Source of the DNA: Ignavibacteriales bacterium
Lineage (GTDB): Bacteria; Bacteroidota; Ignavibacteria; Ignavibacteriales; SURF-24
Length of the DNA stretch: 64,000 nt
Direction of reading: 5' to 3'
Assembly (NCBI GenBank): GCA_026390815.1
Contig: JAPLFH010000003.1
Coordinates: 1-64,000 of the forward strand
Shown: one piece after another, positions 2,065 to 63,306 of the stretch
Layout of the letters: the number at the start of each line of letters is the position of its first letter
How positions within the stretch are numbered: the first letter of the stretch is position 1
Position numbers and translations under genes: made by a program
Notes under the pieces: generated by a model
Told to the model about the DNA's origin: nothing
Database searches by the model: none
What the model saw: the letters and a program-made list of their open reading frames with translations, nothing else

Positions 2065-2128
2065 TTTAATCCTTTAGTAATAATTTGGTGAGTAAAATAC
2101 GAAAATTTTTAATTCAACAGAATTTATT

Positions 2129-2611: not shown

Positions 2612-2710
2612 AGTTGCTCCAAATTTTTATACCAATATACCTGAAAAAATTATTAGAATACAGAAGATGGGATTAGTACTTTGTGTGTACTTATCCATAA
2701 TAATTTTCAT

Positions 2711-22580: not shown

Positions 22581-22711
22581 TACTAAATACCAAGAACTTT
22601 TTGGCTCTTTTCTTATGCAGAATTTATTCCATCTTCTTCCAATCACTGCGAACTATTCTATTCCGTGTTTTAGTTTTTTAAAGTTAAACTTGTTCAATTC
22701 CAATTTATATT

Positions 22712-25639: not shown

Positions 25640-25662
25640 AGTAACTCCTATTAGCTTTTGGT

Positions 25663-26115: not shown

Positions 26116-26127
26116 AATATTTTCTCC

Positions 26128-29733: not shown

Positions 29734-29777
29734 ACTCTAATTTTCCTTAAATCAAAAATAATAATTGTTCAACCTGC

Positions 29778-30140
29778 TCACTTCTGTGCAAGTTGTACTA
29801 TCAGGTCAGTTACTTCTTTGAAATCTTTATTTTTATCAAAGATGTAATCTGCACCTTCTTCTTTGCACTTCTCTTTATATTGAGAATATGGATAGTTTGT
29901 AAAGATGCATACTTTAGCTTTACTTCCTATCTCTTTCATCTTTTTTAGAACACCAATACCGTTCAACTCAGGCATTCTAATATCGAGTAAGACAAAATCA
30001 GGATTTTTCTCTTTGATGATCTCAATGGCTTCAATTCCATTACCTGCTTCACCTACAATTTCTATGTTTTTTGTATCTTTCAGAGATTCTTTTATTCTAT
30101 CGCGCAGCAGTACTGAATCATCAGCAATCACTATCTTCAT
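29778..30140 (-). CDS. CheY-like stand-alone receiver
   Basis: A 120-residue receiver domain alone. Acidic residues sit at 7-8 (ADDS) and the phosphoacceptor aspartate is D53 in LLDIRMPELNG. The switch position lies in CIFTNYP and a lysine in FDKNKDF. An ATG with AAAGG upstream starts the gene. It is the first gene of the four-gene kinase/receiver run. Its sequence resembles the receiver half of NarL-type regulators, but no DNA-binding domain follows. Confidence 0.9.
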   Translation of the reverse strand: MKIVIADDSVLLRDRIKESLKDTKNIEIVGEAGNGIEAIEIIKEKNPDFVLLDIRMPELNGIGVLKKMKEIGSKAKVCIFTNYPYSQYKEKCKEEGADYIFDKNKDFKEVTDLIVQLAQK

Positions 30141-30300
30141 TTTATTACCTTTGTTCTTTTTATTGTTTTTGATTGTAAGTTAAATAAGGGAATGTGTAAT
30201 TGGTATCAGCGCTATACTGATTCTTGTGTAGGGATTACCTGACAGGTTCGTAGAGCGATATTTATGTCGTTACCGGTTTTATTAGTTGATGCTTTATTGG
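30141..30300. other. Leader of the kinase/receiver operon
   Basis: AT-rich non-coding DNA between the receiver gene and the REP array. It contains a degenerate hairpin GCGATATTTATGTCGT near 30262, probably an old repeat unit. No gene is seen. Confidence 0.4.
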
Positions 30301-30566
30301 GTTGTCGAGATAAATCTCGACTTACAGTTTGTAACACGACATTTATGTTGTGAAGGTACTAACATTTAGAACACTTTATGTTTATCGAGATGAATCTCGA
30401 CTTACAGTTTGTAACACGACATTTATGTCGTGAAGGTACTAACATTTAGAACACTTTATGTTTATCGAGATGAATCTGGACTTACAGTTTGTAACACGAC
30501 ATTTATGTCGTGAAGGTACTAACATTTAGAACACTTTATGTTTATCGAGATGAATCTCGACTTACA
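30301..30566. repeat. REP-like array, 80-base period
   Basis: Three complete units and a partial one start at 30301, 30381, 30461 and 30541, an exact 80-base period. Each carries two hairpins: TCGAGATGAATCTCGA (or TAAATC variant) and ACGACATTTATGTCGT. They are followed by ACTAACATTTAGAACACTTT. The array directly abuts the transposase gene's 3' end and is the presumed substrate of that enzyme. Confidence 0.9.
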
Positions 30567-30580
30567 AAACTATCTTGTAT

Positions 30581-31327
30581 TTAAATCAAATATTTTGGGT
30601 TATAATAACTCCAAATCCATTTCCCCCATTCATCAACCAAACCAGCTTTTACGGGATTCTGCAAAACGTAGTTTACTATTCTTCTCAATTCATCAATACT
30701 TCTAACAACATGGTCGTAACTCTCATGCTGCCAAAATGCACCTTGGCGATTTAGAATTTTATTACATTCCCTCGAAGTCGATCCTTTGAGTTTCCTTAAT
30801 ATTTCAGTTACAATATAATTTTGTTTTTGTAGAACGACATTCATGTCGTTGTTTATTAGGTCTTCTTTTGTGTTTTTATTTTGTCGAGATAAATCTCGAC
30901 TTACAGTTTGTAAATCGACATTTATGCCGATAGGTATTGGTGTGAAAGCTAAATGTACATGGTTTGACATAATTGTATATGCAATTAATTCGTATTCTTT
31001 TTCATCTCTGTAATGAATCGCTTCTTTTACTAGTTCTGCAACTTTTTCTTCTTTTAGCCACATTGGTCCACTCTTGTTTTTATCCAATATGCTGTCAAAT
31101 ATTCCAAAATATTTTCGCTGATATTCATAATATTTTTCTGTTTTTTGTTTTTGTTCAATAATACCGGATATTATTTTTAATTCCTTCTCTCTATCTTCTT
31201 TAAGCTTTTTAATTACTGCTATCGGTAATGATCCAACTAATCTAAATGTAACGAAAAAAGTATATCCTGCAGGCTGATAATGTGGTAAATTCCGTTTATA
31301 GTATGTTTTATTTTCTTGTTGTTTCAT
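30581..31327 (-). CDS. REP-associated tyrosine transposase (RAYT, IS200-like Y1 family)
   Basis: A 248-residue HUH-superfamily single-strand DNA transposase. It has the N-terminal RNLPHYQPAGYTFFVTFR strand, the HVH metal-binding motif in MSNHVHLAF (about 121-128), and the GAFWQHESYDH segment containing the catalytic tyrosine, followed by a PVKAGLV C-terminal motif. The ATG at 31327 is the likely start; the frame extends two codons to a TTG. Between HVH and the tyrosine helix, about 33 residues (VDLQTVSRDL ... NNDMNV) are encoded by REP hairpins and are absent from the family pattern. The gene is flanked on both sides by its repeats. Whether the enzyme is active is unclear. Confidence 0.9.
   Translation of the reverse strand: MKQQENKTYYKRNLPHYQPAGYTFFVTFRLVGSLPIAVIKKLKEDREKELKIISGIIEQKQKTEKYYEYQRKYFGIFDSILDKNKSGPMWLKEEKVAELVKEAIHYRDEKEYELIAYTIMSNHVHLAFTPIPIGINVDLQTVSRDLSRQNKNTKEDLINNDMNVVLQKQNYIVTEILRKLKGSTSRECNKILNRQGAFWQHESYDHVVRSIDELRRIVNYVLQNPVKAGLVDEWGKWIWSYYNPKYLI
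30834..30930. repeat. REP unit embedded in the transposase gene
   Basis: Hairpins ACGACATTCATGTCGT (30834-30849), TCGAGATAAATCTCGA (30884-30899) and the degenerate TCGACATTTATGCCGA (30915-30930) occur inside the coding sequence, separated by the same CTTACAGTTTGTAA linker used in the flanking arrays. The reading frame is kept. Confidence 0.88.
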
Positions 31328-31379
31328 ATTCAATACACTTTTGCAATTTGCATTACAATTTTTGTATGTTGTGAAAATA

Positions 31380-31560
31380 CTAACATTGGTAACACTTTAT
31401 GTTTATCGAGATAAATCTCGATTTACAGTTTGTAACTCGACATTTATGTCGTGAAGATACTAACATTTAGAACACTTTATGTTTATCGAGATAAATCTCG
31501 ATTTACAGCTTGTAGCTCGAATTGCCAATTCGAGTATTTGTACCACGACATTTAGAAGCT
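31380..31560. repeat. REP-like repeats, right side block 1
   Basis: Two 80-base-spaced units (hairpins starting at 31406 and 31486) carry TCGAGATAAATCTCGA and a TCGACATTTATGTCGT variant. A third hairpin type, CTCGAATTGCCAATTCGAG, lies at about 31527. The block is repeated with few changes at 31690-31870. Confidence 0.85.
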
Positions 31561-31689
31561 GTGTGATAATTGTAGAGTGAAATTTATTTCGCTCATAAAA
31601 ACCTTGAGAATATTAGTTCTTCGCAATAATCGAGATGAATCTCGCTTTACAATTAGTATTTTCACACTGACTCTTTATGTTGTCAAAAG
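31561..31689. repeat. Degenerate repeat spacer between REP blocks
   Basis: No gene. GAGTGAAATTTATTTCGCTC (about 31576-31595) and CGAGATGAATCTCG (about 31630-31643) are further hairpins related to the REP units. Short open frames here are made of repeats. Confidence 0.6.
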
Positions 31690-31905
31690 AATAACATTGG
31701 TAACACTTTATGTTTATCGAGATAAATCTCGATTTACATTTTGTAACTCGACATTTATGACGTGAAGATACTAACATTTAGAACACTTTATGTTTATCGA
31801 GATAAATCTCGATTTACAGCTTGTAGCTCGAATTGCCAATTCGAGAATTTGTACTATGACATTTATGTCGTGATGTATGCTTTTGTCGAGATAAATCTCG
31901 ACTTA
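31690..31905. repeat. REP-like repeats, right side block 2
   Basis: A near-duplicate of 31380-31560, with hairpins at about 31716 and 31796 and the CTCGAATTGCCAATTCGAG hairpin. It is followed by another TATGACATTTATGTCGTG and TCGAGATAAATCTCGA pair ending next to the regulator gene's stop codon. Confidence 0.85.
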
Positions 31906-31916
31906 CATTTGCCTAT

Positions 31917-32546
31917 TTATTCTATCAAATTATTCCTGATGGCATATTGGGTAAGCTCAGCATTTTTATTCAAACCCATTTTTTCAAGAATACGCATCCT
32001 ATATGTACTAACAGTTTTATCGCTGATAAAAAGCTCGCATGCAATTTCTTTAAGCGATCTTCCATTAGCAATCATATACATTATTTGGAATTCACGTTCA
32101 GAAAGTTTCTCGTGAGGCAATTTATTAAGCTCATCTTCTTTTTCGAAGATAATTTTTTCTGCCAAAGCTGCGGAAATATATTTGCCGCCTGCAGCAATTT
32201 TTTTTACTGCCAACGTAAGTTCTTCATATATACTGTTTTTACATAAATATCCTGAAGCACCTAATCTTAATGCACGTATTGCATATTGTTCCTGTGGATG
32301 CATGCTAAGAATTAATATGTGCGCCTTTTCTTTTCTATCCTTCATCATCTTAAGAATATCCAGTCCACTCAAACCGGGCATTGATATATCGAGTATTATT
32401 AAATCATATCTGTTCTTCTCTATTTTAGTTAATGTTTCGTGTCCATCTCCTGCTTCTTCAACTGAATATTTTTCATCCATACTCATAACAATTTGTTTCA
32501 GTCCTTCTCTAACTATGGTGTGGTCGTCTGCAATTAATACTTTCAT
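31917..32546 (-). CDS. NarL/FixJ-family response regulator
   Basis: A 209-residue transcription factor. The receiver domain (1-120) has DD at 7-8, phosphoacceptor D53 in ILDISMPGLSG, S in ILILSMH and K in YLCKNS. A LuxR-type helix-turn-helix lies at about 145-205 (LSEREFQIMYMIANGRSLKE ... SDKTVSTYRMRI). It starts 9 bases after the giant kinase gene, whose HisKA_3 domain is the type that phosphorylates NarL regulators, so the two form a cognate pair. Target promoters cannot be seen. Confidence 0.95.
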   Translation of the reverse strand: MKVLIADDHTIVREGLKQIVMSMDEKYSVEEAGDGHETLTKIEKNRYDLIILDISMPGLSGLDILKMMKDRKEKAHILILSMHPQEQYAIRALRLGASGYLCKNSIYEELTLAVKKIAAGGKYISAALAEKIIFEKEDELNKLPHEKLSEREFQIMYMIANGRSLKEIACELFISDKTVSTYRMRILEKMGLNKNAELTQYAIRNNLIE

Positions 32547-32555
32547 ATCAGTTCC

Positions 32556-35500
32556 TTATTGAATATTAGGGATACGAATGGTAAGACTTGTGCCTTTATT
32601 TTTAGAAGAAATTATTTTTAAGCTTCCATTAAATTGTTTAAGCCTCTCTTTCATTCCAATAAGACCAAATGAATCTTTAGAATTTATTTTCTCTTTGCTG
32701 ATGCCAACTCCATCATCGCTAATATTTAAATAAATATTGCCTGATGATGGATATAGTTTTATTACTACACCCTTTGCTTTTGCATGTCTGATAATATTGG
32801 TCATCCCTCCTTGAAATATCCTGAACAAAGTTAGAATTATTTTTGGGTCAAGATCAGGAATTTCTTTCAATTCTAAATGGCATGGTAAGCCGGTGCGTTC
32901 TTCAAATTCCTGACAGTACCATTCTAAGGTGGGTATCAAACCCAAATCATCTAACATACCGGGACGCAAGGATGATGAAATTTTTTGTACTTTTGTTATA
33001 GTCTCGTTCACAATATCTACCATACCGTTTATTTTCTTATCGATGAGCATTTTGTCCGTAGTATTTTCTTTTGTCCAATTCAAATCCATTTTAAGAGCAG
33101 TTAGAGATTGACCCAGCTCATCATGTATTTCGCGGGATATTTCGGCGCGTTCATTTTCTCTAATATCGTTTAAATTTTTATAAAGTTGCTCTAATTGTTC
33201 ATGTGATTTTTTTATTTCCATTTCCGCACGCTTTCTTTCGGTGGTGACTTCGGTGTACGTTATCATTCCCCCGATAGAACCATCGGAATTGTACCATGGA
33301 CGGCATTCCCAACGATTATAAGTAATTGAACCATCGGACCGTTCGAAATAATCGTCATCATTTCGTTCAATCGCACCGGATAGACATCGCTGATGCACTT
33401 CTTTCCATCTTTGCGGCATCTCCGGAAACACTTCGTAATGATGTTTTCCAATTATGTCCTCTTCCTTAACATTATAATCCTGAAGGTAACGATCACTTAC
33501 TGCGATGTAATAAAGTTCGCGGTCGTACACAGCCATGGCATTGGGATCGTGTTTGATAATATATCGCATATTTTCTTCACTGTGGCGCAGCATTTCTTCT
33601 GCCTTTTTGCGTTCTGTGATATCACGAATATTACACTGGATCACTTTCTTATGATCAACGAAATAAACATTGCTTACAAACTCAACATAAAGTTTCTTTC
33701 CATCTGAAGCTTTAAGAGCTAAATTTTCATAACGAACATAATGCTTCTGCTGTAATTCAAAAAATTTATCTTCATTATCAATTACATCTTTAAAGAATCC
33801 TATTTCCCAGATTGATTTTTCGATAAATTGTTCTTTTGAATAGCCCAACTTCTCAATCATAAATGGATTTATATCTACGATCTTTCCCGTTTCTGCATCG
33901 AGGATAACAATTCCATCTCTTGCCGCTTCAAAGAGGCGGCGGTACCTGGTTTCCGAAACATTCAATATTTCTTCAGCACGTTTGCGTTCGGTAATGTCGA
34001 TCGCAACTCCAATTAGTCCTAAAGGTTTACCATCATTATCATTAATAGTTGTTGTAGAAAGATAAATAGGAAATTCACTTCCATCCTTTCTTTTATTCCA
34101 CAATTCACCATTCCATCCTCCACGTATTGTAGCAGGAAGAATTTCCCGTACGATTTCCGGTGGATTGTTTGATGACCGTACAATATGTATATCCTTTCCG
34201 ATTAATTCTTCTTCAGAATAACCATAAGTCTCCAAAAAGGATTGGTTAACAAAAATAAGTTTATCTTCCAGGTCAGTAATACTCACACATTCATTAATAC
34301 TTTTGAGAGCATAAGCAAGCATTGTAATTTTTTCTTCAGCCCGCTTGCGCTCGGATATTTCATCATATACGGCAACGATCTCGCCGGAGGGAAGTCGATA
34401 TACAAAGTTGCTGTACCAACCATGCAATTTTTCATCCATGTAAAACTTGGCTGGGTAATGCTCGGAAATACCGGTCTCAAAAACCCGCTTGAACACTTCC
34501 AATATTCCAAATTCAGTGATGCCCTTCCGGACTTGATAGATGCTCTTTCCGATGATATCCTCTTTCCGGTTACCATCTATCCGCTCGCCAGCCCGATTGC
34601 AATCCTTGAAGATAAAATCGTTGCCGTTGCCTGTTACTTCATAAATGGCAACTCCGCTGCTTATATTGTCGAAAAGTTCACGATAACGTTTCTCACTTTC
34701 GCGCAGCGATTCCTCTGCCTGCTTGCGTCCGGTAATATCACGAATGAAACCAACATTAATTTTTTGATTATTATAAGAAAATAAACTGTTTCTAATTTCT
34801 ACAGGGAATATTGAACCATTCTTATTCTTATGATAACGAATAGGTATTTGTGCCTCTCCTGTTTGGACAGCTTTTAACGTAACATTTGGTTGAGTTGAAA
34901 GATCCATAACATTCATTTTACATATCTCATCATGTGTATAACCATATAGGATGGTAGTTGCTGAATTGACATCTAAAATATTTCCTGTCAATTGATTAAC
35001 TAAAAGGACGGCATCGGCTGCTGTTTCAAATAATGCACGATATTTTTCTTCACTCTCGTGCAATGCTTCTTCTGATTTCTTGCGCTCGGTTACATTTCTG
35101 AAATATCCAATTAATCCGTTAACCTTGCCGGTTGAATCAAATTTAGGAATATAAGTTCCTTCGAAAAACTCCGGTTCATTTTTCAAGTTCAGGATTGATG
35201 TTTCCAAATGAATAGATTCGCCTTTTTCCAAAACTTTTCTTTTTAAGACTATGAGATTTTCTGCTTCTTCTTTTTGGAGTAAGTCTAAATCTGTTTTCCC
35301 AATCATATCCGCTTCTGTTAAACCAAGCTGAGGATTAATAACTAACGTATACCGAAGATTGTTATCTTGCATAATGATATGATCGGGGGTATTAGAAGCG
35401 ATACATCGAAATTTTTCTTCGCTCTTCTGCAACGCTTCTGCCGCGCGTTTGCGGTCAGTTACGTCGCGTAGAATAACTTGTGAAGCTATTTTGCCCTGGT

Positions 35501-37586
35501 AAGTAGTAAGTACACCAGCTACTTCAACATAAATAACAGTGCCATCCATTTTTATAAATCGTTCTTCGATTAATGAAGCAGGTTTTCCACTTTTAAACAT
35601 TTCAGCAATTCGGCTTCTTGCCACTTCACGGTCATCGGGATGAACAAATTCCATGGCTGCTTTACCAATCAAGTCTTTTGGGCTAGATGTGCAAAGTAAC
35701 TTTACCGCTGCGGGATTTACAAAAACAATTTTACCTTCACAATGGATAGCAATAGTATCTGGTGATACATTAACGACCTCCCGATAGTGTTCCTCACTTT
35801 CCCGCAGCGCCTCCTCCATCTGCTTGCGCTCGGTAATATCCTGGATAACGCCGAAGATAATATTGTTCTCTTTATCAAATTCGGCAATGGAATGGATATC
35901 AATTATTTCGCCCGCGTCGTTTTTAAGTTTGAATTCAAGATTATACGGCTCGCCGTTTTCAATTAATTTGCGTAAAGCATTTTCGAGAATTAGGCGATAT
36001 TCCGGCAGTGGCATTTCTTTAATTGCAGAATAGTCAAATTGGACTCCATGAAGTCCATAGATTTTGGAGGCGCCTTCTGAAGCAATTATAATTTTGGAAT
36101 CGAGATGCAATTCCCAGTTACCGGTTTTAGAAACAGACTCAGCTCTTTTTAAGTTTGCTTCGCTATAGCGGATAAGTTTTTCTGCTTTGCGTTCTTCTGT
36201 TTTATCACGGAAAACTAAAACGACACCATCAATTTTACCTTGCTCATTGCGGATAGGCGCACCGCTATCGGCAATGGGTATTTCTTTTCCGTCTTTGGAA
36301 ATCAAGAGTGTATGATTTGCAAGCCCTACAATCATTCCTTCTCTTATAACTCTTCCTGCGGGATTTTCAACTTTATTCCGCGTTTCTTCATTTACAATTT
36401 GAAAAATATCTTCAAGTAGTTTGCCTTTAGCATCGGCTTCACTCCAGCCGGTTAACTCTTCTGCGGTTCGATTCATATGTTTAACAACACCATTGTTATC
36501 GGAAGTCATTACGCCATCGCCAATGCTGAATAATGTTGTTTTAAATTCTTCATGCGCTTCACGCAATTCTTTTTCTTTAACAAAAAGTTCTCTGTAAATA
36601 TTTCTTTGACGTGAATAATAAATCCAAGCCAAACCGGTACCTGATAAAAGAATTAAAACTAATGTAAATACGCTTATTAAGATTGATCTAAAAGTAAGTT
36701 CAGAGTAGATTTCACTTTTATCAATTTTGGCAACCATAAACCAAGGTGTGCCGGGGATTGCTTGAATATCCGATAGCACCCGTACGCCCCGGTAGTCTTT
36801 CCCTTCCCAAATTCCTTTATAACCTAAAACAGCTTGCACTGCGGGGATTTCTTTTTTGGTTAAAGGAATCCGGAGTTTTAGTGCAGTATTTTTCTGGTGC
36901 CGTAATTCATTAAGATAGAAAACGCTGTCCCCTTCTCTGCGAAGTAGTAATGTTTCGGCTGTTTTGCTTGGAATGGGCCATTTTTGTATTAAAGGGTATA
37001 AATAATCATTCGGGTCAATACGGAACAGCATTGCTCCAATTGAAATATTTTTATTATCAATAATCGGTGCAATAATATCAAAGTGAATTTTTTTGTGTAT
37101 AGTGCAATAATAAAAATCTGTAAATGTTATTTGCTGTTTTTTAATTGCTTCCCGAATTTTGGATGATGTAACCTTATTAAAGATTTTCTCTTTAGGATTG
37201 AGAGAAAGCAGAAATTCTCCTTGTGGTGATGCAAGAAAAATATCTTCATAACCAAAATGTAATTGAAATCGAGCGAATTGTTTTAATATATTTTTTTTAA
37301 TCGAAAGATCTTTTCTATTGCCAAACCATTGTTCAATTTCTCTAATAAAGGGCGGTGCTTGCGTTGCACTGGCTGCATCGCCAAATCTTTCTTTTCGCCA
37401 TTGTGTAATCTGACTAATTTTTAATTCAGCAATTGCTTTAATTTCTTGGTGCTTTGCTTTGCTGATGGAATTTTCTTCAGATGAATAATAGAGAATACCG
37501 CCGAATATAAGCAGTGTGCTTATGGCGCTTACTAAAACAACAAAGTGCCATTTTTTAATTACCCTCTGTTTAGATTTTTTTTTCAT
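32556..37586 (-). CDS. Giant membrane sensor kinase, Cache + nine PAS + HisKA_3
   Basis: A 1676-residue NarX/DegS-type kinase. TM1 is at about 14-33, a double-Cache-like extracytoplasmic region spans 35-300 and TM2 is at about 303-325. Nine PAS domains follow, each ending in a DITERK-like linker. The HisKA_3 dimerisation domain has H1488 in EISREIHDELGQ, and the HATPase ends with GLIGMKER and GTSLTIRIP. The family dimerises and phosphorylates NarL-type regulators; its cognate partner follows directly. Nine serial PAS domains are many even for this group, suggesting integration of several signals or a long signalling stalk. The ATG has AGGAT upstream. The N-terminus resembles a truncated kinase start at 37702-37851, implying a local duplication. 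Confidence 0.95.
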   Translation of the reverse strand: MKKKSKQRVIKKWHFVVLVSAISTLLIFGGILYYSSEENSISKAKHQEIKAIAELKISQITQWRKERFGDAASATQAPPFIREIEQWFGNRKDLSIKKNILKQFARFQLHFGYEDIFLASPQGEFLLSLNPKEKIFNKVTSSKIREAIKKQQITFTDFYYCTIHKKIHFDIIAPIIDNKNISIGAMLFRIDPNDYLYPLIQKWPIPSKTAETLLLRREGDSVFYLNELRHQKNTALKLRIPLTKKEIPAVQAVLGYKGIWEGKDYRGVRVLSDIQAIPGTPWFMVAKIDKSEIYSELTFRSILISVFTLVLILLSGTGLAWIYYSRQRNIYRELFVKEKELREAHEEFKTTLFSIGDGVMTSDNNGVVKHMNRTAEELTGWSEADAKGKLLEDIFQIVNEETRNKVENPAGRVIREGMIVGLANHTLLISKDGKEIPIADSGAPIRNEQGKIDGVVLVFRDKTEERKAEKLIRYSEANLKRAESVSKTGNWELHLDSKIIIASEGASKIYGLHGVQFDYSAIKEMPLPEYRLILENALRKLIENGEPYNLEFKLKNDAGEIIDIHSIAEFDKENNIIFGVIQDITERKQMEEALRESEEHYREVVNVSPDTIAIHCEGKIVFVNPAAVKLLCTSSPKDLIGKAAMEFVHPDDREVARSRIAEMFKSGKPASLIEERFIKMDGTVIYVEVAGVLTTYQGKIASQVILRDVTDRKRAAEALQKSEEKFRCIASNTPDHIIMQDNNLRYTLVINPQLGLTEADMIGKTDLDLLQKEEAENLIVLKRKVLEKGESIHLETSILNLKNEPEFFEGTYIPKFDSTGKVNGLIGYFRNVTERKKSEEALHESEEKYRALFETAADAVLLVNQLTGNILDVNSATTILYGYTHDEICKMNVMDLSTQPNVTLKAVQTGEAQIPIRYHKNKNGSIFPVEIRNSLFSYNNQKINVGFIRDITGRKQAEESLRESEKRYRELFDNISSGVAIYEVTGNGNDFIFKDCNRAGERIDGNRKEDIIGKSIYQVRKGITEFGILEVFKRVFETGISEHYPAKFYMDEKLHGWYSNFVYRLPSGEIVAVYDEISERKRAEEKITMLAYALKSINECVSITDLEDKLIFVNQSFLETYGYSEEELIGKDIHIVRSSNNPPEIVREILPATIRGGWNGELWNKRKDGSEFPIYLSTTTINDNDGKPLGLIGVAIDITERKRAEEILNVSETRYRRLFEAARDGIVILDAETGKIVDINPFMIEKLGYSKEQFIEKSIWEIGFFKDVIDNEDKFFELQQKHYVRYENLALKASDGKKLYVEFVSNVYFVDHKKVIQCNIRDITERKKAEEMLRHSEENMRYIIKHDPNAMAVYDRELYYIAVSDRYLQDYNVKEEDIIGKHHYEVFPEMPQRWKEVHQRCLSGAIERNDDDYFERSDGSITYNRWECRPWYNSDGSIGGMITYTEVTTERKRAEMEIKKSHEQLEQLYKNLNDIRENERAEISREIHDELGQSLTALKMDLNWTKENTTDKMLIDKKINGMVDIVNETITKVQKISSSLRPGMLDDLGLIPTLEWYCQEFEERTGLPCHLELKEIPDLDPKIILTLFRIFQGGMTNIIRHAKAKGVVIKLYPSSGNIYLNISDDGVGISKEKINSKDSFGLIGMKERLKQFNGSLKIISSKNKGTSLTIRIPNIQ

Positions 37587-39735: not shown

Positions 39736-40977
39736 ATGAAAAAATTCTTTAATATATTTTTAATTGTTTTGTTTGGTTTAATTGGATGTAAGGACAAATC
39801 TACAAATCCAAAGGAGGAATTACCTCCAGGTTACCAGCAGGATATTCCCTGGCCCAGCCTGGCAGATTCTCCCTGGCCCATGAATCATCACGATCCACAA
39901 TCGACAGGTAGAAGTAAATTTGCCGGACCAAAATTAGGATTAATTAATTGGGAGATTGACAGTATATATATGAGATCCGGTGTTTCTGTCGGACCCGACT
40001 CTACAATTTATTTTGTATCTATTGAAAGAAAAGGATTATTTGCGGTAAGACCTGATGGAAAAATTAAATGGATACTGAAAGATGTTGTAGAAAATGGATG
40101 GGTATATACAACCCCCTTAATAGCAAGTGATGGTACCATTTATATTGGAGGTGGTCTTAATGGTAAACTTTATGCGATTAGTCCAGATGGTAAAATAAAA
40201 TGGGAATTAAAAACACTTGGATTTATTTACCATGTTGGATTAAATATAGGAAAAGACGGAACAATTTATTTATTAAATGGGGATCCTACATCAATTGCAA
40301 AATTAGTTGCCATTAAACCAACTGGAAAAATAGATTGGTATTTTGAAAATCCAAATATTGATTATGGTTCTTCTTCCGGTACGGCAATTTCCCCGGACGG
40401 TAATACTATCTATGTCCCGGGAATTGGACCATCTATTTTTGCTATTGATTTAGAAACACATCAATTAAAATGGAGCTTTGGTAATTCAAGATATCAAACC
40501 ACACCAATTGTGGATTCCTATGGTAATATTTATTTAGTAAGTAAATTAGATTCAGTTAATTCCGGAAATGCTTCTGTCTTTTGCATAAAGCCTGATGGTA
40601 AAATAAAATGGTCTTATAAACTTGCATTCACAGCGGTTCCATTTCATTTTATTTCAGAAGGAACAATAGATAAAAATGGGAATTATTATTTTGCTTTAGA
40701 CACAGTATACTCATTTAACTTTAATGGAAATATTAATTGGAAATTAAACATAGGGGGTTATTATATTGGTTTTTTAATAAATGATTTTGAAGGAGATATT
40801 TATTTTACAGTAGATTTCTCTTATCCGTTAAAATATTATAAGGTGGATAACAAAGGTAATTTAATGTGGACAACCGAGCTAGGTAATCAATTCGGTGGAT
40901 ATTCACCGGCAATCGGAACAAATAAAAATATTTATATTCCAACTTTTAAATCCGCTAAAGTTTTTTCGATAAAATAG
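39736..40977 (+). CDS. PQQ-like beta-propeller lipoprotein
   Basis: The N-terminus is a lipoprotein signal peptide with lipobox LIGC (lipidated C18), followed by a charged linker. Repeats of the form DGTIYIGGG-(L)NGKLYAISPDGK-IKWEL recur through about 413 residues, the hallmark of an eight-bladed PQQ-like (BamB/pyrrolo-quinoline quinone type) propeller; several blades share DGKIKW. The catalytic residues of quinoprotein dehydrogenases are not evident, so a binding or scaffold role at the outer surface or periplasm is more likely. It is inserted between nuoC and nuoD on the same strand and may be cotranscribed with them. No functional link to complex I can be shown. Confidence 0.8.
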   Translation: MKKFFNIFLIVLFGLIGCKDKSTNPKEELPPGYQQDIPWPSLADSPWPMNHHDPQSTGRSKFAGPKLGLINWEIDSIYMRSGVSVGPDSTIYFVSIERKGLFAVRPDGKIKWILKDVVENGWVYTTPLIASDGTIYIGGGLNGKLYAISPDGKIKWELKTLGFIYHVGLNIGKDGTIYLLNGDPTSIAKLVAIKPTGKIDWYFENPNIDYGSSSGTAISPDGNTIYVPGIGPSIFAIDLETHQLKWSFGNSRYQTTPIVDSYGNIYLVSKLDSVNSGNASVFCIKPDGKIKWSYKLAFTAVPFHFISEGTIDKNGNYYFALDTVYSFNFNGNINWKLNIGGYYIGFLINDFEGDIYFTVDFSYPLKYYKVDNKGNLMWTTELGNQFGGYSPAIGTNKNIYIPTFKSAKVFSIK

Positions 40978-40986
40978 AAGATAATT

Positions 40987-42189
40987 ATGAAAAAAATATT
41001 ATTACTAGTAATTGTTTTATTCAAAATTATATCTCCTCAAAATTTACTCGTTCCTTACGATATGGAGATTTTGCCTCAAACGCAAAATTTTGATTTAGAA
41101 AGTATTACTTTCACAATTGAACCACAAAATACAGTTGCATATTGTATAAGTGGTTCACAATGGTATGTTAATGGAGCAAATAGTTGTGATACAACAATAA
41201 TTGGTAATTATTTACAACCACATCTTAACCCACAAAATGAGTGGATTGACTATGGTTTTGATGTTTGCTATAGCACTAGTGGTTATCCTAAATTTTGGCT
41301 AACAGTAAATAAAATAACAATATCAAAAGGTGAAACGTCATTTTATTTTTATATTGATTATCGGGATTGTGGTTATGGCAATAATTGGAATGATATAACA
41401 ATAAGGTATGATGATAATTGGGGCTATTTTATTTCAGCAATGTTAAATACAAGTATTCCAAGTAATGGGCAATCACCTACAACCTGTGGTTTTTCCACCA
41501 TTAGTCTTGGACAAATCTTTAGAATTGGTTTGTTGAATAATTTTGGTACTTATAATACCGATTGTATGGCTAATTTAAATTATTGGGCAAATTGCTTAGT
41601 CTTAGTAAATCAGAATAATCATCCTGCATTAATTTGGGGACCTAATCCATCGTTTAGTGCTACTCATTTTAAAATATATAGGGCAGAATCAAACGGCCAA
41701 GTTGGTAATCCCATAAATCTTAATTATTCTTTAATCGCTACTGTTGAATCAAATATACTTCATTATACTGATTTTGATGTTTTAATTAGTAACGAGATCG
41801 AAAGTTATTATCAATATTATTATATAAAAGGATTTAAAAATAGACAAAATACATATTCATCACCCACAAACATTGTCAATGTTCAAGGTGGTGTATATAA
41901 AATAAATTCAGACCGTGAAAAGAGCAATGAAAAAGTAAATTTTTTAACACAAAACTATCCCAATCCTTTTAATCCAATAACACAAATCAAATACTCACTT
42001 CCAGAACCTACTTTAGTGCAGTTACAAGTATTTGATCCATTTGGAAAAGAAGTACCAATATTAGTGAATGAAAGAAAAGATGAAGGAACATATGAAGTGG
42101 AATTTGATGCAAGCAATCTTTCAAGCGGAATATATTTCTATCAACTAAAAACAAATAATTTTATACAACAAAAAAGATGTTGGTTGTAA
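40987..42189 (+). CDS. Secreted protein with type IX sorting domain, C-terminus frameshifted
   Basis: A signal peptide (MKKILLLVIVLFKIISP) precedes about 300 residues of unrecognised sequence rich in W, Y and paired cysteines, with an Fn3-like part near 210-295 (ALIWGPN ... HFKIYRAES). The final part is a sorting domain with QNYPNPFNPITQIKYSLPEP and GTYEVEFDASNLSSGIYFYQ. The protein ends QQKRCWL instead of the expected KKM(L/V)xVK. Adding one A to the six-A run at 42170-42175 would restore QQKKMLVVK followed by a stop. The gene lies between the propeller gene and nuoD. Export may be impaired if the frameshift is real. Confidence 0.8.
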   Translation: MKKILLLVIVLFKIISPQNLLVPYDMEILPQTQNFDLESITFTIEPQNTVAYCISGSQWYVNGANSCDTTIIGNYLQPHLNPQNEWIDYGFDVCYSTSGYPKFWLTVNKITISKGETSFYFYIDYRDCGYGNNWNDITIRYDDNWGYFISAMLNTSIPSNGQSPTTCGFSTISLGQIFRIGLLNNFGTYNTDCMANLNYWANCLVLVNQNNHPALIWGPNPSFSATHFKIYRAESNGQVGNPINLNYSLIATVESNILHYTDFDVLISNEIESYYQYYYIKGFKNRQNTYSSPTNIVNVQGGVYKINSDREKSNEKVNFLTQNYPNPFNPITQIKYSLPEPTLVQLQVFDPFGKEVPILVNERKDEGTYEVEFDASNLSSGIYFYQLKTNNFIQQKRCWL

Positions 42190-54437: not shown

Positions 54438-54713
54438 TTAAACTACTTCTATTCTGACTCTTCTTCCTAATGTTCTTGCGTAACGCCCAAGGGTAGAAAG
54501 CTTAATATCCTCTGAATGATTTTCTATTCTTGATATGACAGACTTTTTTGTTTTTAACTTTTTTGCTAATTCTTCTTGAGTTAATCCGGATTTTACACGC
54601 AACTGTTTAAGTAATATACCTATTTTAAAATTCTGATAACCTATATCATAATTTTCTGCAAACTCTGCATCTTCTTTTTTTCTTTGTGCAACATATTTTT
54701 TCAAATCACTCAT
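54438..54713 (-). CDS. HigA-like XRE-family antitoxin
   Basis: An antitoxin-repressor of about 91 residues with a Cro/C1 helix-turn-helix (LKQLRVKSGLTQEELAKKLK, TKKSVISRIENH). The ATG at 54713 is preferred; the frame extends 19 codons further into the toxin gene. It overlaps the upstream HigB-type toxin gene by 8 bases and follows it, which is the reverse gene order typical of hig modules. It would neutralise the toxin and repress the operon. Confidence 0.85.
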   Translation of the reverse strand: MSDLKKYVAQRKKEDAEFAENYDIGYQNFKIGILLKQLRVKSGLTQEELAKKLKTKKSVISRIENHSEDIKLSTLGRYARTLGRRVRIEVV

Positions 54714-55062
54714 TTCTTTTCTTCCTTTTATAATAGTTTCTTTTTCTTTCTTCTGCAACCTTAATTTCACTCAACGGTGTTTTTTGTGTTTTCTTCGCAA
54801 ATCCATTTGTTACCATAAAATTTCCATCTGGCTTAAAAAAACCTAATAACCTAAAAATATCCCCAGAATAAATTATTCTGATTGCCCAAATATCATCTGT
54901 GTTCCTTAACTTCTCAAAGTATTGTTTAGGAACTAAAGAAGTTTCCTCAAAAAGTTCTAAAATCCAAGTAACTTTTTTAGCTTGTTTTCCCGTAAGAGAA
55001 TTAAGAAATTCTTTTGCTGGATATTTTCCAGATTCCAGTTGATAAAAATTTACTTCTCGCAT
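54706..55062 (-). CDS. HigB-like (Gp49-type) toxin
   Basis: A 118-residue RelE-superfamily toxin of the phage-Gp49/HigB branch. It shows EFLNSLTGKQAKKVTWILEL, KLRNTDDIWAIRI, a FRLLGFF strand and the terminal GFAKKTQKTPLSEIKVAEER, which is the family signature. Family members cleave ribosome-bound mRNA. It is the first gene of the pair with the XRE antitoxin. Confidence 0.88.
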   Translation of the reverse strand: MREVNFYQLESGKYPAKEFLNSLTGKQAKKVTWILELFEETSLVPKQYFEKLRNTDDIWAIRIIYSGDIFRLLGFFKPDGNFMVTNGFAKKTQKTPLSEIKVAEERKRNYYKRKKRNE

Positions 55063-55546: not shown

Positions 55547-55882
55547 TTACCCTAAAAATTTATCGCCATTAAAATGAATTGTATGATCAGGATCATTTCT
55601 TAACCAGATATAACTTCCCCAAGATATTTTTTGTGAAATTTTTGATAATTCATTCCTATCATTGAATAGTGTAAAAAAAACAACTTTACCTTTCCAATTT
55701 TTTAAATAGGATAAAATTCTATCCTTCTGCTCTTCAGATACAATTCCATTTTTACTTTGTGCAAAGATAATATAAATTGTGTCTTCCCTACAAAATGCAT
55801 TAATTGATTTATCCAGTAGAAAAATCTTTTTCGCTTTTTTAATAAATCGTTTTTTAAAATCAATAACAATCCCAACTTTCAT
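55547..55882 (-). CDS. Hypothetical protein
   Basis: A 111-residue basic protein of unknown family. It shows an alpha/beta alternation (IVIDFKKRF, AFCREDTIYIIFAQ, GKVVFFTLFND), and ends SYIWLRNDPDHTIHFNGDKF. The ATG is preceded by GAGGAT. It lies 7 bases after a methylase fragment, so it may be the surviving distal part of a restriction-modification or related locus. I cannot assign a function. Confidence 0.5.
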   Translation of the reverse strand: MKVGIVIDFKKRFIKKAKKIFLLDKSINAFCREDTIYIIFAQSKNGIVSEEQKDRILSYLKNWKGKVVFFTLFNDRNELSKISQKISWGSYIWLRNDPDHTIHFNGDKFLG

Positions 55883-55889
55883 ATTATCC

Positions 55890-56207
55890 TCAGTTTAATA
55901 AATTAATTAATAATATGTCTTTTGATTTATTTGTTTTAGCAAGATTTTCAATTAATGAACAAGCTATTACTCCGATACTACTCCCCGGATCTGAGATTTT
56001 ACTTTTTGCTTTTTGATTAAATAAAAGATTTGCCATATAATTGGCAATTTCAACTGGAGTAAAAAACTGTCCTAGATTTTTTTTATGAGTTGAGGTAACC
56101 TGTGAAGTATATAATAAACCTAATCTATCAGCATAAGTTGTAGGTGTTTCATCTTTTGCCGAAGGCATGGATTTCCAAATTGGTGTTACATCATTCCCGT
56201 CTCTCAT
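55890..56207 (-). pseudogene. N-6 DNA methylase fragment (Eco57I/type I-like), truncated
   Basis: The 105-residue frame matches the start of adenine-specific DNA methylases: the HKKNLGQFFTPVEIANYMAN motif that precedes the SAM-binding site, then SDPGSSIGV at the position of motif I (DPAxGxG). It stops about 30 residues later, well before the catalytic NPPY motif. No continuation was found in the neighbouring sequence. It is most likely the remnant of a lost restriction-modification gene. Confidence 0.7.
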
Positions 56208-57476: not shown

Positions 57477-58622
57477 TTATAAAAGTTTTATTTTAGTTAT
57501 TCGATCCATAGAATTAATATATATCTCTATTGCAAATGTACGCAATAAATCACGACCATATAAAACTTGCCTGTTTTTATTATTTTGAATAAATGTACTA
57601 CTTTCCCAATCTTTCACAACTATGATTGTTAATTCTTTTTGAATTTCTTTTTCGAAATCATCAATTAATGAAATTGTTACTTTTTTTGTAAAATATTTGT
57701 AATCTCTACCTAAATGTATCCCGTATTCATTTGAACATATAAAATCAAAAATACTTGGTTCAACCAAATTTGAGGTAATAAATGAGCAATAAGCACCTGT
57801 ATCAAAATCATCTTTGATAATTCTATCATTAATTTTTGCAACAATAGTGGGATAAAAATCATTATCCAAATTTGTACGATTCCATTGTGTTAAAACATTT
57901 GGATCATAAAATGTATCTTCAGGCAATAATAATTTACTATAGGCAAACGGAATAAGATTTGTTCTATCACCAATTTGCACGAGTTCTTTTTCATTTGGAA
58001 ATTCTAACAAATCAGAAGAACCTTTATATAAATTTTCACCTATTACAACACACCATAGCCAGTTTTTTTTTGTTAATTCAATATCTATCCAATGTCCATG
58101 TTTCTCCCAATGAGATTCAACTGCTTTACTATAAAAGGATGTATTTGTAATGTAGTCATGGAATGTAATTAATTCCGGATAAATATTTTTGACTTTATTA
58201 TACTTGCCAGATTTTTCAAGAATAGTTTTAAAAAACCTTTGTGATAATAAAGGTTTTTGAAAATTTATTTCCTTTTGTTCTGTAATTATAGCTAAAGAAT
58301 TATCAATATAACTTTTATATTGTGGATCTGTTGTATAGGCACTATAAACATAAGTGGGTAAATGTTTAATTTTTTTATTTATATCTGATAAAAATCTTGC
58401 TCCATTTTCTAAAGCATCAAAAGGATCCATTTTGCAATCAACAATTAATCCACTATAATAATTAGTTTTTGATTCTAGAAAATTATTAGCTTCATTAATG
58501 GATGTAGCAACTTGAATTTCAAATAATTGTTTTCCTTCAATGATTAATAATTGTTTATAATTTTCTATGAATTGTGGTTCATCGTCCATCCATAATAATG
58601 GGATTTGATTTTTCACAGACAT
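57477..58622 (-). CDS. Response regulator with retropepsin-like aspartic protease output domain
   Basis: Residues 1-135 are a complete receiver: DDE at 13-15, phosphoacceptor D62 in GLIVDCKMDP, S94 in YVYSAYTT and K123 in FQKPL. Residues about 170-230 (HGHWIDIELTKKNWLWCVVI ... EFPNEKELVQIG) resemble the small domain found ahead of bacterial retropepsin-like proteins. Residues 255-380 then read as a retropepsin-like protease: PTIVAKINDRIIKDDFDTGA with the catalytic DTGA at 274-277, and the second signature VLYGRDLLRTFAIEI at about 353-367. The ATG follows GAGGA, which lies inside the end of the kinase gene only 2 bases away. A receiver controlling a protease is the inference; the domain call is from motifs, not a search. 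Confidence 0.75.
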   Translation of the reverse strand: MSVKNQIPLLWMDDEPQFIENYKQLLIIEGKQLFEIQVATSINEANNFLESKTNYYSGLIVDCKMDPFDALENGARFLSDINKKIKHLPTYVYSAYTTDPQYKSYIDNSLAIITEQKEINFQKPLLSQRFFKTILEKSGKYNKVKNIYPELITFHDYITNTSFYSKAVESHWEKHGHWIDIELTKKNWLWCVVIGENLYKGSSDLLEFPNEKELVQIGDRTNLIPFAYSKLLLPEDTFYDPNVLTQWNRTNLDNDFYPTIVAKINDRIIKDDFDTGAYCSFITSNLVEPSIFDFICSNEYGIHLGRDYKYFTKKVTISLIDDFEKEIQKELTIIVVKDWESSTFIQNNKNRQVLYGRDLLRTFAIEIYINSMDRITKIKLL

Positions 58623-58624
58623 AT

Positions 58625-60790
58625 TTATTCCTCACATATTGGTAATAATATTTCTAAGACTGCTTCTTTACCTGGTACAGATTTAATAAATTTAATGGAT
58701 CCATTAAAATATTGTATCAATTTCCGCGCATAAAACAAACCTAAACCAGTTCCATCTGGCCAAGTAGTAAAGAATTCATTAAATAATGAAGGTAATATTT
58801 GAGCCTCAATTCCTACACCCGTATCACTTATTTCAATTCGAAGCATTTTTGATTCAACAAGTTTCCTAACTGCTACAAATATTTCTTTCTTAGGAGATAA
58901 TTTATTTTCTTTAATAGCTTTAATAGAATTATTAAATAAATTAATTAGACTTTCGTATGCTAAATTTTTATCAATAATTACTAAATAATCTTCATTTGTC
59001 AACGAATGCTTAATACTAATATTTGTTCGAATAAGTCTATCTTCTATATACTTTATTGCAGGTCGCACGACATTTTCGACGAATAATATTTTTTGCGAAA
59101 TTGGTTTTAATGTTTTTCCTCTTTCTTGTGCTTGCTTAACAAGACCTGAACATAAATTCAATAATATTTTAAAGTTTTTTATTTGTTCTTCTAGTTCTTC
59201 TTTTTTACTATTTGGTTGTCCTGCTAAAGCATCTAAAAGCATTAACTCAGATCCTATTGTATAAACATGATTTCCTAACTCATGGAAAATTCTTAATGAT
59301 ACTTCTCTATAGAAAAACAAACTATCAGCTCTTTCTACCATCTTTTGTTTGATTTCTAATTTTTGAAATATTTCTGAAATAGATCTAATATTTGCTAATA
59401 AATTACTTATTGGTTCACTAAAGATTCTTAATGCAAGTAACTGTTCAATACCGAAAGCATTAATTTCATTAAAATTACCAACTTTAATTGCCCCTATATT
59501 TATTCCACTTTTAATTAATGGGTAATACATTACACTTTTTTCATCTTCAATAGTCTTTGGAGTAATAATGAAATTTAATTTTACTTTTTCCCAATTTTCA
59601 AATGAAATATTGTTTGGATTGAATTGAATAGCTTCACAGGTTAAGTCATCAAATGTCTTAGTAATAAAAAAAGCTTTGTTGTTTTTTATACAATGATATG
59701 TTAGACAATTATTCGAACTGAAATATTCTGTTTCAATCCCTCTTTCATAATGTTTATAGATTTTCCTAAAATAAAGTTTATTATTCTCTTCTTTTACAAC
59801 TTCTAAAATTGAAATTCCGTTAGCATTAAAAAAATTATTTAATATTTTAATTACATCATAAAGAACATCATCCTTTTCTCTATGAATATTTTCGATTTGT
59901 GTTAAGGTTTTTAAATTTTCATATTCTTGTTGCACCGTAATATGTCTCATAAGATGGAATATTTCTCGAGAACATAATTCATAAGAACTTATAAAACATT
60001 TGACCATATCATCTTTTGGGAATACATAAATTATATAGCTATAAACACCATTAAGAATAAATTTTGTAACATAGTACAAAATTTTTCCATTATAACTAGT
60101 TCTAATATTATTTGTTAATCCCGGTAATAATTCCTCACTAACAAATAAACTTTCATTTTTTGTTAATGCTTCATCTAATTCATTTATATATTTTTTTGTT
60201 ATTAATTCAAAATCCATTTTTATTAAACCTGCACTGGTATTAATGGAATATATTCCGGGAATATTTTCGCTTCTAATAACAGCAATAAACAAAGAATCAA
60301 TTTCTTTAAAAGATTTATTTAAGAATTTGTTGATTTTAATTTCTTGATTTATTTCTTTACGGGCTTCTTCATAATAAGAAATTAAATTTTTTATTTTATT
60401 TGATTGAATATTTAATTTGATATTTTCATATAAAGCATAAATTTTGGTTAGTAAATAAATTATATAATCTGCTGCTTTTTTATTAATAAAATGTATATTG
60501 CTATAACCTTTAAATAAATTGATCTCAACTGTTATCAAATTACTATGAATAAACACTATCTGAATTGAATCATTACTCTTTATTTCTTTTGTTTTTTCGA
60601 AAATTAAATTAACATTTATATCCTCTGTAAGATTAATTACTAGTATTTTCCCACTAATTTTTTCATCCATAAACTTCATGAGCTGTTCAATATCATTTAA
60701 TTCCAGCATTTGAGCACAGAGATCTATTTTTTTAATAATTGAAAATTCTTTTTTACTGAGTTTAAATGATGCTATTTTAAAGGTAACCAA
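58625..60790 (-). CDS. GAF-domain sensor histidine kinase
   Basis: A soluble kinase of about 721 residues. The N-terminal approximately 120 residues form an alpha/beta segment (GKILVINLTED, IQIVFIHSNL) that could be a degenerate receiver-like domain. A middle region and GAF domain follow (about 300-480). The phosphoacceptor helix has H503 in LRIFHELGNHVYTIGSEL, and the HATPase shows NLFNNSIKAI, DTGVGIEA and DGTGLGLFYARKLI. I place the start at the TTG at 60790: AAGGAG sits seven bases before it and directly follows the upstream stop codon. The ATG at 60856 would overlap the previous gene by 53 bases and lacks such a site. It abuts the receiver-protease gene, its probable partner. Confidence 0.88.
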   Translation of the reverse strand: MVTFKIASFKLSKKEFSIIKKIDLCAQMLELNDIEQLMKFMDEKISGKILVINLTEDINVNLIFEKTKEIKSNDSIQIVFIHSNLITVEINLFKGYSNIHFINKKAADYIIYLLTKIYALYENIKLNIQSNKIKNLISYYEEARKEINQEIKINKFLNKSFKEIDSLFIAVIRSENIPGIYSINTSAGLIKMDFELITKKYINELDEALTKNESLFVSEELLPGLTNNIRTSYNGKILYYVTKFILNGVYSYIIYVFPKDDMVKCFISSYELCSREIFHLMRHITVQQEYENLKTLTQIENIHREKDDVLYDVIKILNNFFNANGISILEVVKEENNKLYFRKIYKHYERGIETEYFSSNNCLTYHCIKNNKAFFITKTFDDLTCEAIQFNPNNISFENWEKVKLNFIITPKTIEDEKSVMYYPLIKSGINIGAIKVGNFNEINAFGIEQLLALRIFSEPISNLLANIRSISEIFQKLEIKQKMVERADSLFFYREVSLRIFHELGNHVYTIGSELMLLDALAGQPNSKKEELEEQIKNFKILLNLCSGLVKQAQERGKTLKPISQKILFVENVVRPAIKYIEDRLIRTNISIKHSLTNEDYLVIIDKNLAYESLINLFNNSIKAIKENKLSPKKEIFVAVRKLVESKMLRIEISDTGVGIEAQILPSLFNEFFTTWPDGTGLGLFYARKLIQYFNGSIKFIKSVPGKEAVLEILLPICEE

Positions 60791-60803: not shown

Positions 60804-61145
60804 CTACCTAGACCAGGCCATAAAATATCTCTTCTTTGGTACAATTTCTTCTGCATCTATTTTACTACTATTGGCGTTAAAATTCTTCAAACTAGTCATT
60901 TCGGAAATTCCAAATGCACTTGAATAAATTATAAAGCTATTAAACAAAGCTAAAATACAAGAGATAAATGAAATCTCATTTTTTATTATAATAGCCGTAT
61001 AAGAAATTAATAATGATATAAAAAAACCCACATATTTAGGTTTCAATTTAAAAAGAAAAAACAAGGTTTGAGCTGAAAAATAAGTTGCCGTTACTGCACC
61101 ACTTAAAGTAAGAATATCTTCAGTAGTTAACAATTCTTGAATCAT
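60804..61145 (-). CDS. Small membrane protein, three predicted helices
   Basis: A 113-residue protein with hydrophobic segments at about 14-32, 39-54 and 60-80, followed by a charged C-terminal tail (SSKIDAEEIVPKKRYF). No family was recognised; size and topology are holin-like, but so are many small membrane proteins. AGAGGAG precedes the ATG. It lies 85 bases after the PIN-like gene and directly before the kinase, so it could be the membrane sensor or anchor of the system. Confidence 0.7.
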   Translation of the reverse strand: MIQELLTTEDILTLSGAVTATYFSAQTLFFLFKLKPKYVGFFISLLISYTAIIIKNEISFISCILALFNSFIIYSSAFGISEMTSLKNFNANSSKIDAEEIVPKKRYFMAWSR

Positions 61146-61230: not shown

Positions 61231-63234
61231 TTACATTTTCATAATAATTTTATTCTTTTTTTTTGAAATTAATTCCTTTATTTCATTACTAACTTTTATA
61301 TCTATCCCTATAATTTTTTCACTATACTTACTTAAAATTTTAGGTTTTAAATAATAATTTGAAAATAATATTGAGCCTATTATTTCAATACTAATTGCTG
61401 AAGCAATTATTTCAAATTTACTGTTTGATTGAATAAATAATATGACAATTGAAGTAAGAATTAATAAAACTAAAGGCAATATTAAAAAAATCATCAATTT
61501 GTTTTTTCTAAGTTTACCATCATATTCATCATGCAATTCTCCTTTTCTCCGATTTCTAAATTCTTCAATAAATAAATCACGTTCTTTAATCATTTCTTCT
61601 TTCTCATCTTTTAAAAACTGATTTTCAATTTGCGATTTTTCAAGATCAGTTTTTATTTTTAATTTTTCATTCTGAAATTCTCTTCTTAAAAATAAACTTG
61701 CTTCTTCTTCACTGGCTCCGGAAATCCTTATTTTATTTAATTTTTGTGCAATTTCAGTAACTTTTTCATCCGGCAATTCATTTATCTGAATTTTAGTGTC
61801 AAGTATATACGACAAGTCAGCTAGAGTAAACGCATTTTTTTCGGGAATTAGTGATAATTTTATAACATCAACAAAGAGTGGGGCAAAGCTTGTAGGATCA
61901 ATATCAATATCATCAATGTAATAAACCATTAGATTTATTAATACGTCCATACTTATGGCTATTGGAAATTCATCTCTAATTATATTTTCTATTGCATATT
62001 GCTTTATCGTCCCATCTTTGGTTAAAATCCAACAGTTTTCTTTTTTTCTTATAAATTGGGCACCTTGTAATAATCCAGCGTCATGAATTAGTGCATTTTC
62101 TCTTCTTGGTCTATTCCACCTTTTAATATTTATTTCATTTATTCTATTTTTTATAGAATTATCTTGTGAAGCTTTACATACAATCATGTTAACCTCATCA
62201 TCATCTAATAATTCTATTTTCAATCTATTAAAAAATCTATCCGGTATTTTATATAATGAGTTAAAAAATTGTGTAATTTCTTCTTCATCAGTTTGGTTTC
62301 TTTTAATTAAAGTCCTTATATAACAGTCATCAACCTTCATCAAAACTTCTATTGAATAATTCTTAAAAACATTTAATACTTCTATTTTTTTATTTTCAAT
62401 AACTCTTTGATATTCTTTTCGGCTAATTGGGAGATGTTTTGTCTTAATACCATATTTCAAAAAAATATTTTCCATATTTTCTAATGATTTGGAAAATTCG
62501 TATCCCTCAAGTCCTAATATCATTAAAATATTTGTATCCAATATTAAGGTTGCATTTTTTAGATATTCCAGTGAAAGATTGTCCCCAAATAATCTTGCCG
62601 TAAGTAAAGTTGTAGAAAATTTTGATGTGCCATATGCCCATAACAAATTAATATCTTCACTTCTATCACTATCAAGAAATTTCAAATATTGCTTCGCCAA
62701 CCAATTTTTATCTTTATCTGAAATAGTATTATAATTGTTAAAACTACTTTCTATTAATTCTCTAATTCTTAAAGTATTCTTGGAAAATTCTGTAGGATTT
62801 TTACAGATTTCATGGATCCATTCATAACTAAATTTCTCAAAAAAAGTGATTGTTAAATCTTCAAACCAATTTCTAACGATACTTTTATCACATTCTGTAT
62901 TTTCAAACCAATTTTCTATAACATTTTGATGGCAAATTTCATTTTCATTAAACGCACTCTCTATCTTTACTCTATAATTATTATCAAAATAGAATCCTTC
63001 ATCTTTGTGAAAAATTTTGTTTTCATTTATTAATTCTTCAATGGATTTATCAAAATCCTTCTTACTAATTTTGGTATGTGTTATATTATTTAGTTCTTCT
63101 TTTAATAAATTTCTTTTTACACCTTCACCACAGACAAATATTAATTTTAAAATTAATTGTGAAAGTGCAATACTTGATAGAGATTTAAATGTATTGTCAT
63201 GTTTAAGATAAAGTGTTAGTAGTTTTTTCTTCAT
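61231..63234 (-). CDS. Membrane-anchored PIN-like nuclease protein
   Basis: A 667-residue protein. The N-terminal approximately 85 residues look like a winged-helix-type domain, followed by a helical region. A PIN-like domain spans about 225-415 with the expected acidic residues: D233 in LILDTNILM, E274 in SRKEY, D385 in ALIHDAGLL and D407 in WILTKDGTIK. A coiled coil lies at about 505-560 (KLKIKTDLEKSQIENQFLKD). Two hydrophobic helices at about 580-603 and 608-626 suggest membrane attachment near the C-terminus. The ATG at 63234 has GGGAAG upstream; a TTG five codons earlier is less likely. It is the first gene of the four-gene unit. PIN enzymes usually cleave RNA; here that is inference. 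Confidence 0.7.
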   Translation of the reverse strand: MKKKLLTLYLKHDNTFKSLSSIALSQLILKLIFVCGEGVKRNLLKEELNNITHTKISKKDFDKSIEELINENKIFHKDEGFYFDNNYRVKIESAFNENEICHQNVIENWFENTECDKSIVRNWFEDLTITFFEKFSYEWIHEICKNPTEFSKNTLRIRELIESSFNNYNTISDKDKNWLAKQYLKFLDSDRSEDINLLWAYGTSKFSTTLLTARLFGDNLSLEYLKNATLILDTNILMILGLEGYEFSKSLENMENIFLKYGIKTKHLPISRKEYQRVIENKKIEVLNVFKNYSIEVLMKVDDCYIRTLIKRNQTDEEEITQFFNSLYKIPDRFFNRLKIELLDDDEVNMIVCKASQDNSIKNRINEINIKRWNRPRRENALIHDAGLLQGAQFIRKKENCWILTKDGTIKQYAIENIIRDEFPIAISMDVLINLMVYYIDDIDIDPTSFAPLFVDVIKLSLIPEKNAFTLADLSYILDTKIQINELPDEKVTEIAQKLNKIRISGASEEEASLFLRREFQNEKLKIKTDLEKSQIENQFLKDEKEEMIKERDLFIEEFRNRRKGELHDEYDGKLRKNKLMIFLILPLVLLILTSIVILFIQSNSKFEIIASAISIEIIGSILFSNYYLKPKILSKYSEKIIGIDIKVSNEIKELISKKKNKIIMKM

Positions 63235-63306
63235 ACTTTTTCTTCCCAAAACCTATAAAGATTTAAGTACTTCTACCGATAATAATATTGGGTACCTAAA
63301 TATTGC

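Follow-up and report, generated by a model that had tools for sequence, protein, structure and literature searches.

Could a two-component system end in the cleavage of a protein? Response regulators mostly end in DNA-binding domains or second-messenger enzymes, and the question is raised by a gene at positions 57477-58622 of the window, that is, the whole 64,000-nucleotide stretch of Ignavibacteriales bacterium contig JAPLFH010000003.1 that we analyzed. A preliminary description of this DNA, which gave no strand for the interval, had claimed a 381-residue protein joining a receiver to a retropepsin-like aspartic protease. Translation places the protein (P0001) on the minus strand (58622→57477), where an unbroken 381-aa ORF is read, the plus strand of the interval being riddled with stops. 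Every residue singled out at the time (D62, S94, K123, DTGA at 274-277 and GRDLL) is present exactly as stated, and the occurrence, in one protein, of a receiver, a middle region and a tail bearing the two retropepsin-type motifs is confirmed.

Receiver domain, histidine kinase and gene order

As for the N-terminal module, the claim of a receiver is well supported. Residues 8-127 (58242-58601, minus strand) form this domain, in which the PF00072 Response_reg profile matches residues 10-106 with E = 4.2e-6 and 27.3 bits, just missing the curated cut-off of 30.2. Beyond the residues named previously, we found the acidic pair D13/D14, so that the receiver signature is present at conserved positions: the acidic pair, the putative phospho-acceptor aspartate D62 (58437-58439, minus strand), the Ser/Thr residue S94 and the lysine K123.

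The gene is the third of an operon-like, same-direction run of three, which encodes a 113-aa hydrophobic protein, a histidine kinase and then the receiver-protease. The 113-aa protein (60804-61145, minus strand) is probably a membrane protein and has no family match. The second gene (58625-60790, minus strand) encodes a cytosolic histidine kinase with a HATPase_c domain (PF02518, E = 1.7e-14), a general core of the AtoS type (E = 4e-25), an H-box at H525, an N-box at 639 and G1 and G2 boxes at 678 and 702. It thus combines the ATPase domain, the N/G1/G2 boxes and the phospho-acceptor histidine of a sensor histidine kinase; the HisKA profile gave no match in it. The longest ATG frame of the kinase extends to 60856, and its likely start is a TTG at 60790, seven bases behind an AAGGAG and 13 bases after the preceding stop. 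At the other end of the kinase gene (58621-58634, minus strand), the ATG of the receiver-protease, with a GAGG upstream, comes two bases after the TAA stop, and the two genes are likely translationally coupled.

A pseudo-receiver suspected at the N terminus of the kinase found no profile support, and searching 294 genomes of the class brought up no genuine relative of the N-terminal part of the kinase. A kinase match in one of these searches (genome G591) was rejected as a relative, since it has only a GAF-like stretch in common and no receiver-protease beside it. The window also contains, at 18114-37586 on the minus strand, a cluster of very large multi-PAS histidine kinases, hybrid kinases and receivers.

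Retropepsin-like features of the C terminus

The C-terminal module, which we place at residues 251-381 (57480-57872, minus strand), had been described as retropepsin-like. Clan AA proteases share a DTG/ILG motif template (PMC2642776), and both of its elements can be recognized here. FDTGA at residues 273-277 includes the putative catalytic DTGA (residues 274-277; 57792-57803, minus strand), and LYGRD lies 82 residues downstream at 354-358, within LYGRDLL, which bears out the distance of about 80 residues given in the preliminary description for GRDLL (residues 356-360; 57543-57557, minus strand). The protein therefore displays the clan AA pattern of D-T/S-G followed by A and, downstream, by a hydrophobic-hydrophobic-G motif. 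Since there is only one DTG in the 381-aa chain, each chain would supply a single lobe and a homodimer would be required.

Curated models in Pfam, NCBIfam and PHROGs reported no retropepsin family for the whole protein, and the C terminus scored over the cut-off of no curated family in these three collections. PF00077 (RVP) aligns with the isolated C terminus almost over its full length (profile positions 5-99 of 101), with E = 0.21 and 12.4 bits, its cut-off of 20.7 not being reached. We also made profiles from bacterial retropepsins of related genomes, the 381-aa protein being excluded; the merged profile comprises 21 sequences. The family used is, judged by its matches, one of true retropepsins, because several of the relatives score above the Pfam cut-offs for RVP or Asp_protease_2 and because a seven-row alignment (six relatives and the 381-aa protein) retrieves, from the PDB, DDI1 and proteases of retroviruses.

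When the C-terminal segment was scored with the 21-sequence profile, profile positions 13-116 aligned from end to end with residues 257-367 at 15.8 bits, a score reached by none of 50,000 shuffles (maximum, 11.8), the reversed sequence scoring -1.6. Scored as a whole with the same profile, the protein comes first with 12.2 bits, the runner-up among the window's 202 frames, real or reversed, having 3.4. Smaller retropepsin profiles were matched as well by 21, 3 and 0 of 20,000 shuffles, respectively, and in a profile-profile comparison the alignment covered no more than 35 columns and had a probability of 6%. Masking DTGA alone left a profile match equaled by 36 of 20,000 shuffles, and masking GRDLL alone left one equaled by 18 of 20,000. 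With both motifs masked, the score fell to -1.5 bits, 7,367 of 20,000 shuffles were as good and the retropepsin similarity was gone. The statistical case for a retropepsin therefore depends on the two motifs and the distance between them, the same features that had been singled out before our analysis.

On these two motifs and their spacing, residues 251-381 are probably a retropepsin-like domain. What stands of the original claim is the motif pair, the spacing, the end-to-end profile fit and the outcome of the decoy test; on the other side, the domain lies below every curated cut-off and shows no detectable similarity outside the two motifs. The host genome yielded no second retropepsin.

Proposed mechanism and alternative readings

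Many receivers dimerize on phosphorylation. In the mechanism that we propose as the most economical, the cytosolic kinase, possibly tied to the membrane via the 113-aa hydrophobic protein encoded upstream, would phosphorylate D62 of the receiver. The middle region connects this receiver to a retropepsin-like domain of a single lobe, each chain having one DTGA. Phosphorylation would lead the receivers to dimerize, the two protease lobes would meet and a cytosolic protein would be cleaved. Retropepsins are homodimers in which one aspartate comes from each chain (PMC12239564), and it is because two chains are needed for the aspartate dyad that receiver dimerization would switch on cleavage. What the sequence itself shows is the order of the genes, the receiver residues, the kinase core and the two protease motifs, correctly spaced and placed. 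The fold, the catalytic activity, the dimerization switch and the existence of a substrate are what we infer here, and the chances that the locus encodes such a kinase-controlled retropepsin-like protease, a two-component system in which phosphorylation dimerizes the receiver and thereby activates cleavage, seem to us evenly balanced.

The middle region (residues 128-250; 57873-58241, minus strand) may add to this picture. At twelve loci of several families (L013, L022, L042, L048-L054, L072 and L080), a short DUF5678-like gene lies directly upstream of a cytosolic retropepsin gene. This order was seen in all eight of the DUF5678 loci that were opened and likewise in L013, L022, L042 and L080, the partner encoded before the cytosolic retropepsins being small and W-containing, and the gene pair looks like a conserved two-gene module. 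By eye, residues ~172-240 of the 381-aa protein overlay the DUF5678-like partner (W..V.GE.L...S.D ... IPF ... PE; alignment A7). The PF18929 profile found no match in the middle region, pairwise comparison with the partner genes gave P of about 0.2 at best, and a DUF5678-like assignment of this region found no statistical support, the likeness being one seen by eye and every pairwise, profile and shuffle test being non-significant. That the protein is a receiver fused to a two-part DUF5678-like/retropepsin module is thus a lead drawn from visual likeness. We advance only tentatively, and with some doubt, the more specific idea that a phosphoryl signal would be turned directly into target cleavage by a dimerization-activated, retropepsin-type regulator, possibly composed of a receiver and such a module. 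A different kind of fusion was seen at another locus (L084 of genome G218, 1474-3384, minus strand), where the open frame of a MurC cell-wall enzyme continues without a break into a retropepsin-like domain at the C terminus (DTGATDCLIS ... IIGYSFF).

The same region bears on an alternative in which the C terminus is retropepsin-like in fold and is not switched by phosphorylation, being instead a constitutive dimer or a binding or scaffold domain, with the receiver controlling the binding of a partner or substrate. Retropepsin dimers form without a receiver in other bacteria (PMC12239564), and the likeness of the middle region to the partner of bacterial retropepsins suggests that partner or substrate binding could be what is regulated. 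However, that likeness is not significant, and a dead domain kept for binding or scaffolding would not be expected to retain an intact DTGA. We consider this alternative unlikely.

Could the C terminus instead be an unrelated, fast-evolving, beta-rich output domain in which DTGA and GRDLL are coincidental? Such a reading fits a retropepsin signal that comes entirely from two motifs and the lack of a curated match, as well as the isolation of the sequence. Homologues of the receiver-protease were found neither among 96 relatives nor in 341 genomes of the class, neither in plasmids and phages (tblastn) nor in viral contigs, and a less sensitive pattern search of genome contigs found none across 84,980 species; with the C terminus as query, there was none in 396 genomes of the phylum. 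One of the genome-contig searches used motif-weighted synthetic alignments, as query patterns only. A weak match in the phylum (L003) was rejected as a chance match to a metallo-beta-lactamase, and no further receiver-retropepsin fusion was present among the retropepsin matches inspected. The receiver-protease is an orphan, the single example in the collections searched. Structure prediction was uninformative as well: AlphaFold2, run without an alignment, gave unusable models with a pLDDT of 34 for the whole protein and 37 for the C-terminal 136 residues.

The frequency of the motif pair argues against coincidence. DTGA followed at retropepsin-like spacing by hydrophobic-hydrophobic-G-x-D arose in 7 of 1,500,000 shuffles of residues 126-381 (4.7e-6 per shuffle), and in none of 1,500,000 when the second motif also had to lie 12-32 residues from the C terminus. 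The motif tested was picked post hoc, after being seen, a point in favor of coincidence, and it is with this selection in mind that the pair is to be read as exceeding chance in residues 126-381. Moreover, either motif alone sustains the profile match in the masking experiments, and no frame of the window, real or reversed, scores higher than the protein. A chance origin of the two motifs is, in our view, improbable.

The surroundings of the run raise one more reading. GC content is 23-26% across 57-63 kb (about 25% in the three-gene run) vs. about 35% in the neighboring nuo genes, and the AT-rich stretch looks like acquired DNA. An N6 DNA methylase and a BsuBI/PstI-type restriction enzyme, both fragmentary, lie at 55547-56207 (minus strand) and are apparently remnants of a restriction-modification system; there is a HigBA-like pair at 54438-55062, and the same stretch holds a DUF5131 gene listed by PADLOC as a defense candidate. 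With these neighbors, a defense role is therefore thinkable, in which the kinase would sense infection and the receiver-linked enzyme would be a toxic or signaling effector of an anti-phage or conflict system, as in Detocs, which is understood to work through a kinase-driven receiver-effector fusion. This role would be compatible with the kinase-controlled protease that we favor, but it appears rather improbable, given that PADLOC models match neither the receiver-protease nor the 113-aa hydrophobic protein, that the PADLOC match to the kinase is a weak one falling on the generic core, that only two of the three genes expected of a system of the Detocs kind are present and that the locus could not be shown to recur in other genomes.

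Two further features of the window were recorded. A 672-aa protein encoded at 61231-63249 (minus strand), which matches no curated family, combines a PIN-nuclease-like motif (LILDTNILMILG) with a charged helical stretch and has hydrophobic segments at its C terminus. At 39736-42189 (plus strand), the NADH dehydrogenase (nuo) run is split by two unrelated genes, one for a PQQ-repeat-like protein and one for a protein with a type IX secretion-like tail.

Comparison with known systems

The preliminary description knew of no system of the receiver-protease kind. Likewise, our search of the literature, which covered mostly open papers outside Galperin's output-domain censuses, found no description of a receiver-aspartic protease fusion, and within the literature searched a retropepsin-like output domain is apparently undescribed for response regulators. 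If the proposed mechanism is true, two-component signaling and regulated proteolysis would be joined in one protein, and the protease would be switched by phosphorylation in a simple and testable manner, since the active site needs two chains. It would also add to the scant knowledge of cytosolic bacterial retropepsins.

Response regulators with an enzymatic output, such as CheB, offer a first parallel, their phosphorylated receiver controlling a fused enzyme. The outputs in this class are methylesterases, phosphatases and cyclic-dinucleotide enzymes. A receiver-controlled fused enzyme would thus be the common feature, and the difference lies in the output, which in CheB-type regulators is not an aspartic protease.

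In Detocs, a histidine kinase drives an effector enzyme that carries a receiver, and a kinase together with a receiver joined to a putative enzyme is what our locus has in common with it. Detocs is a defensive two-component system of three genes (PMC11249213). These encode a kinase, a second receiver protein and the receiver-effector, a set that is incomplete here; in contrast to Detocs, our locus has no second receiver gene and no effector of a described type, and a 113-aa hydrophobic protein is encoded instead.

As for the protease module itself, RloA and RimB are retropepsin-like proteases of Pseudomonas, the Rlo proteins having signal peptides and RimB having none, and APRc is named in the same paper as a retropepsin-like protease of Rickettsia (PMC12239564). 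The likeness to our protein consists in DTGA, a single-lobed chain, probable membership of clan AA and expected homodimers. In contrast, these proteases have no receiver fusion as described there (PMC12239564), and the 381-aa protein lies under every curated cut-off. The DUF5678-like/retropepsin pairs are similar in that a small W-containing partner precedes the retropepsin, with a stretch matching by eye in the fused protein; they differ in being two separate genes, without receiver or kinase, and in a likeness that is not significant.

SpoIIGA of Bacillus is a signal-transducing aspartic protease (PMC13174948). Like the protein proposed here, it is an aspartic protease activated by a signaling input, and its output is proteolytic, pro-sigma E being cleaved. 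The activator of SpoIIGA is SpoIIR and not a histidine kinase, and SpoIIGA is devoid of a receiver domain. It thus differs in having no receiver-based switch and is, in function, the nearest known counterpart.
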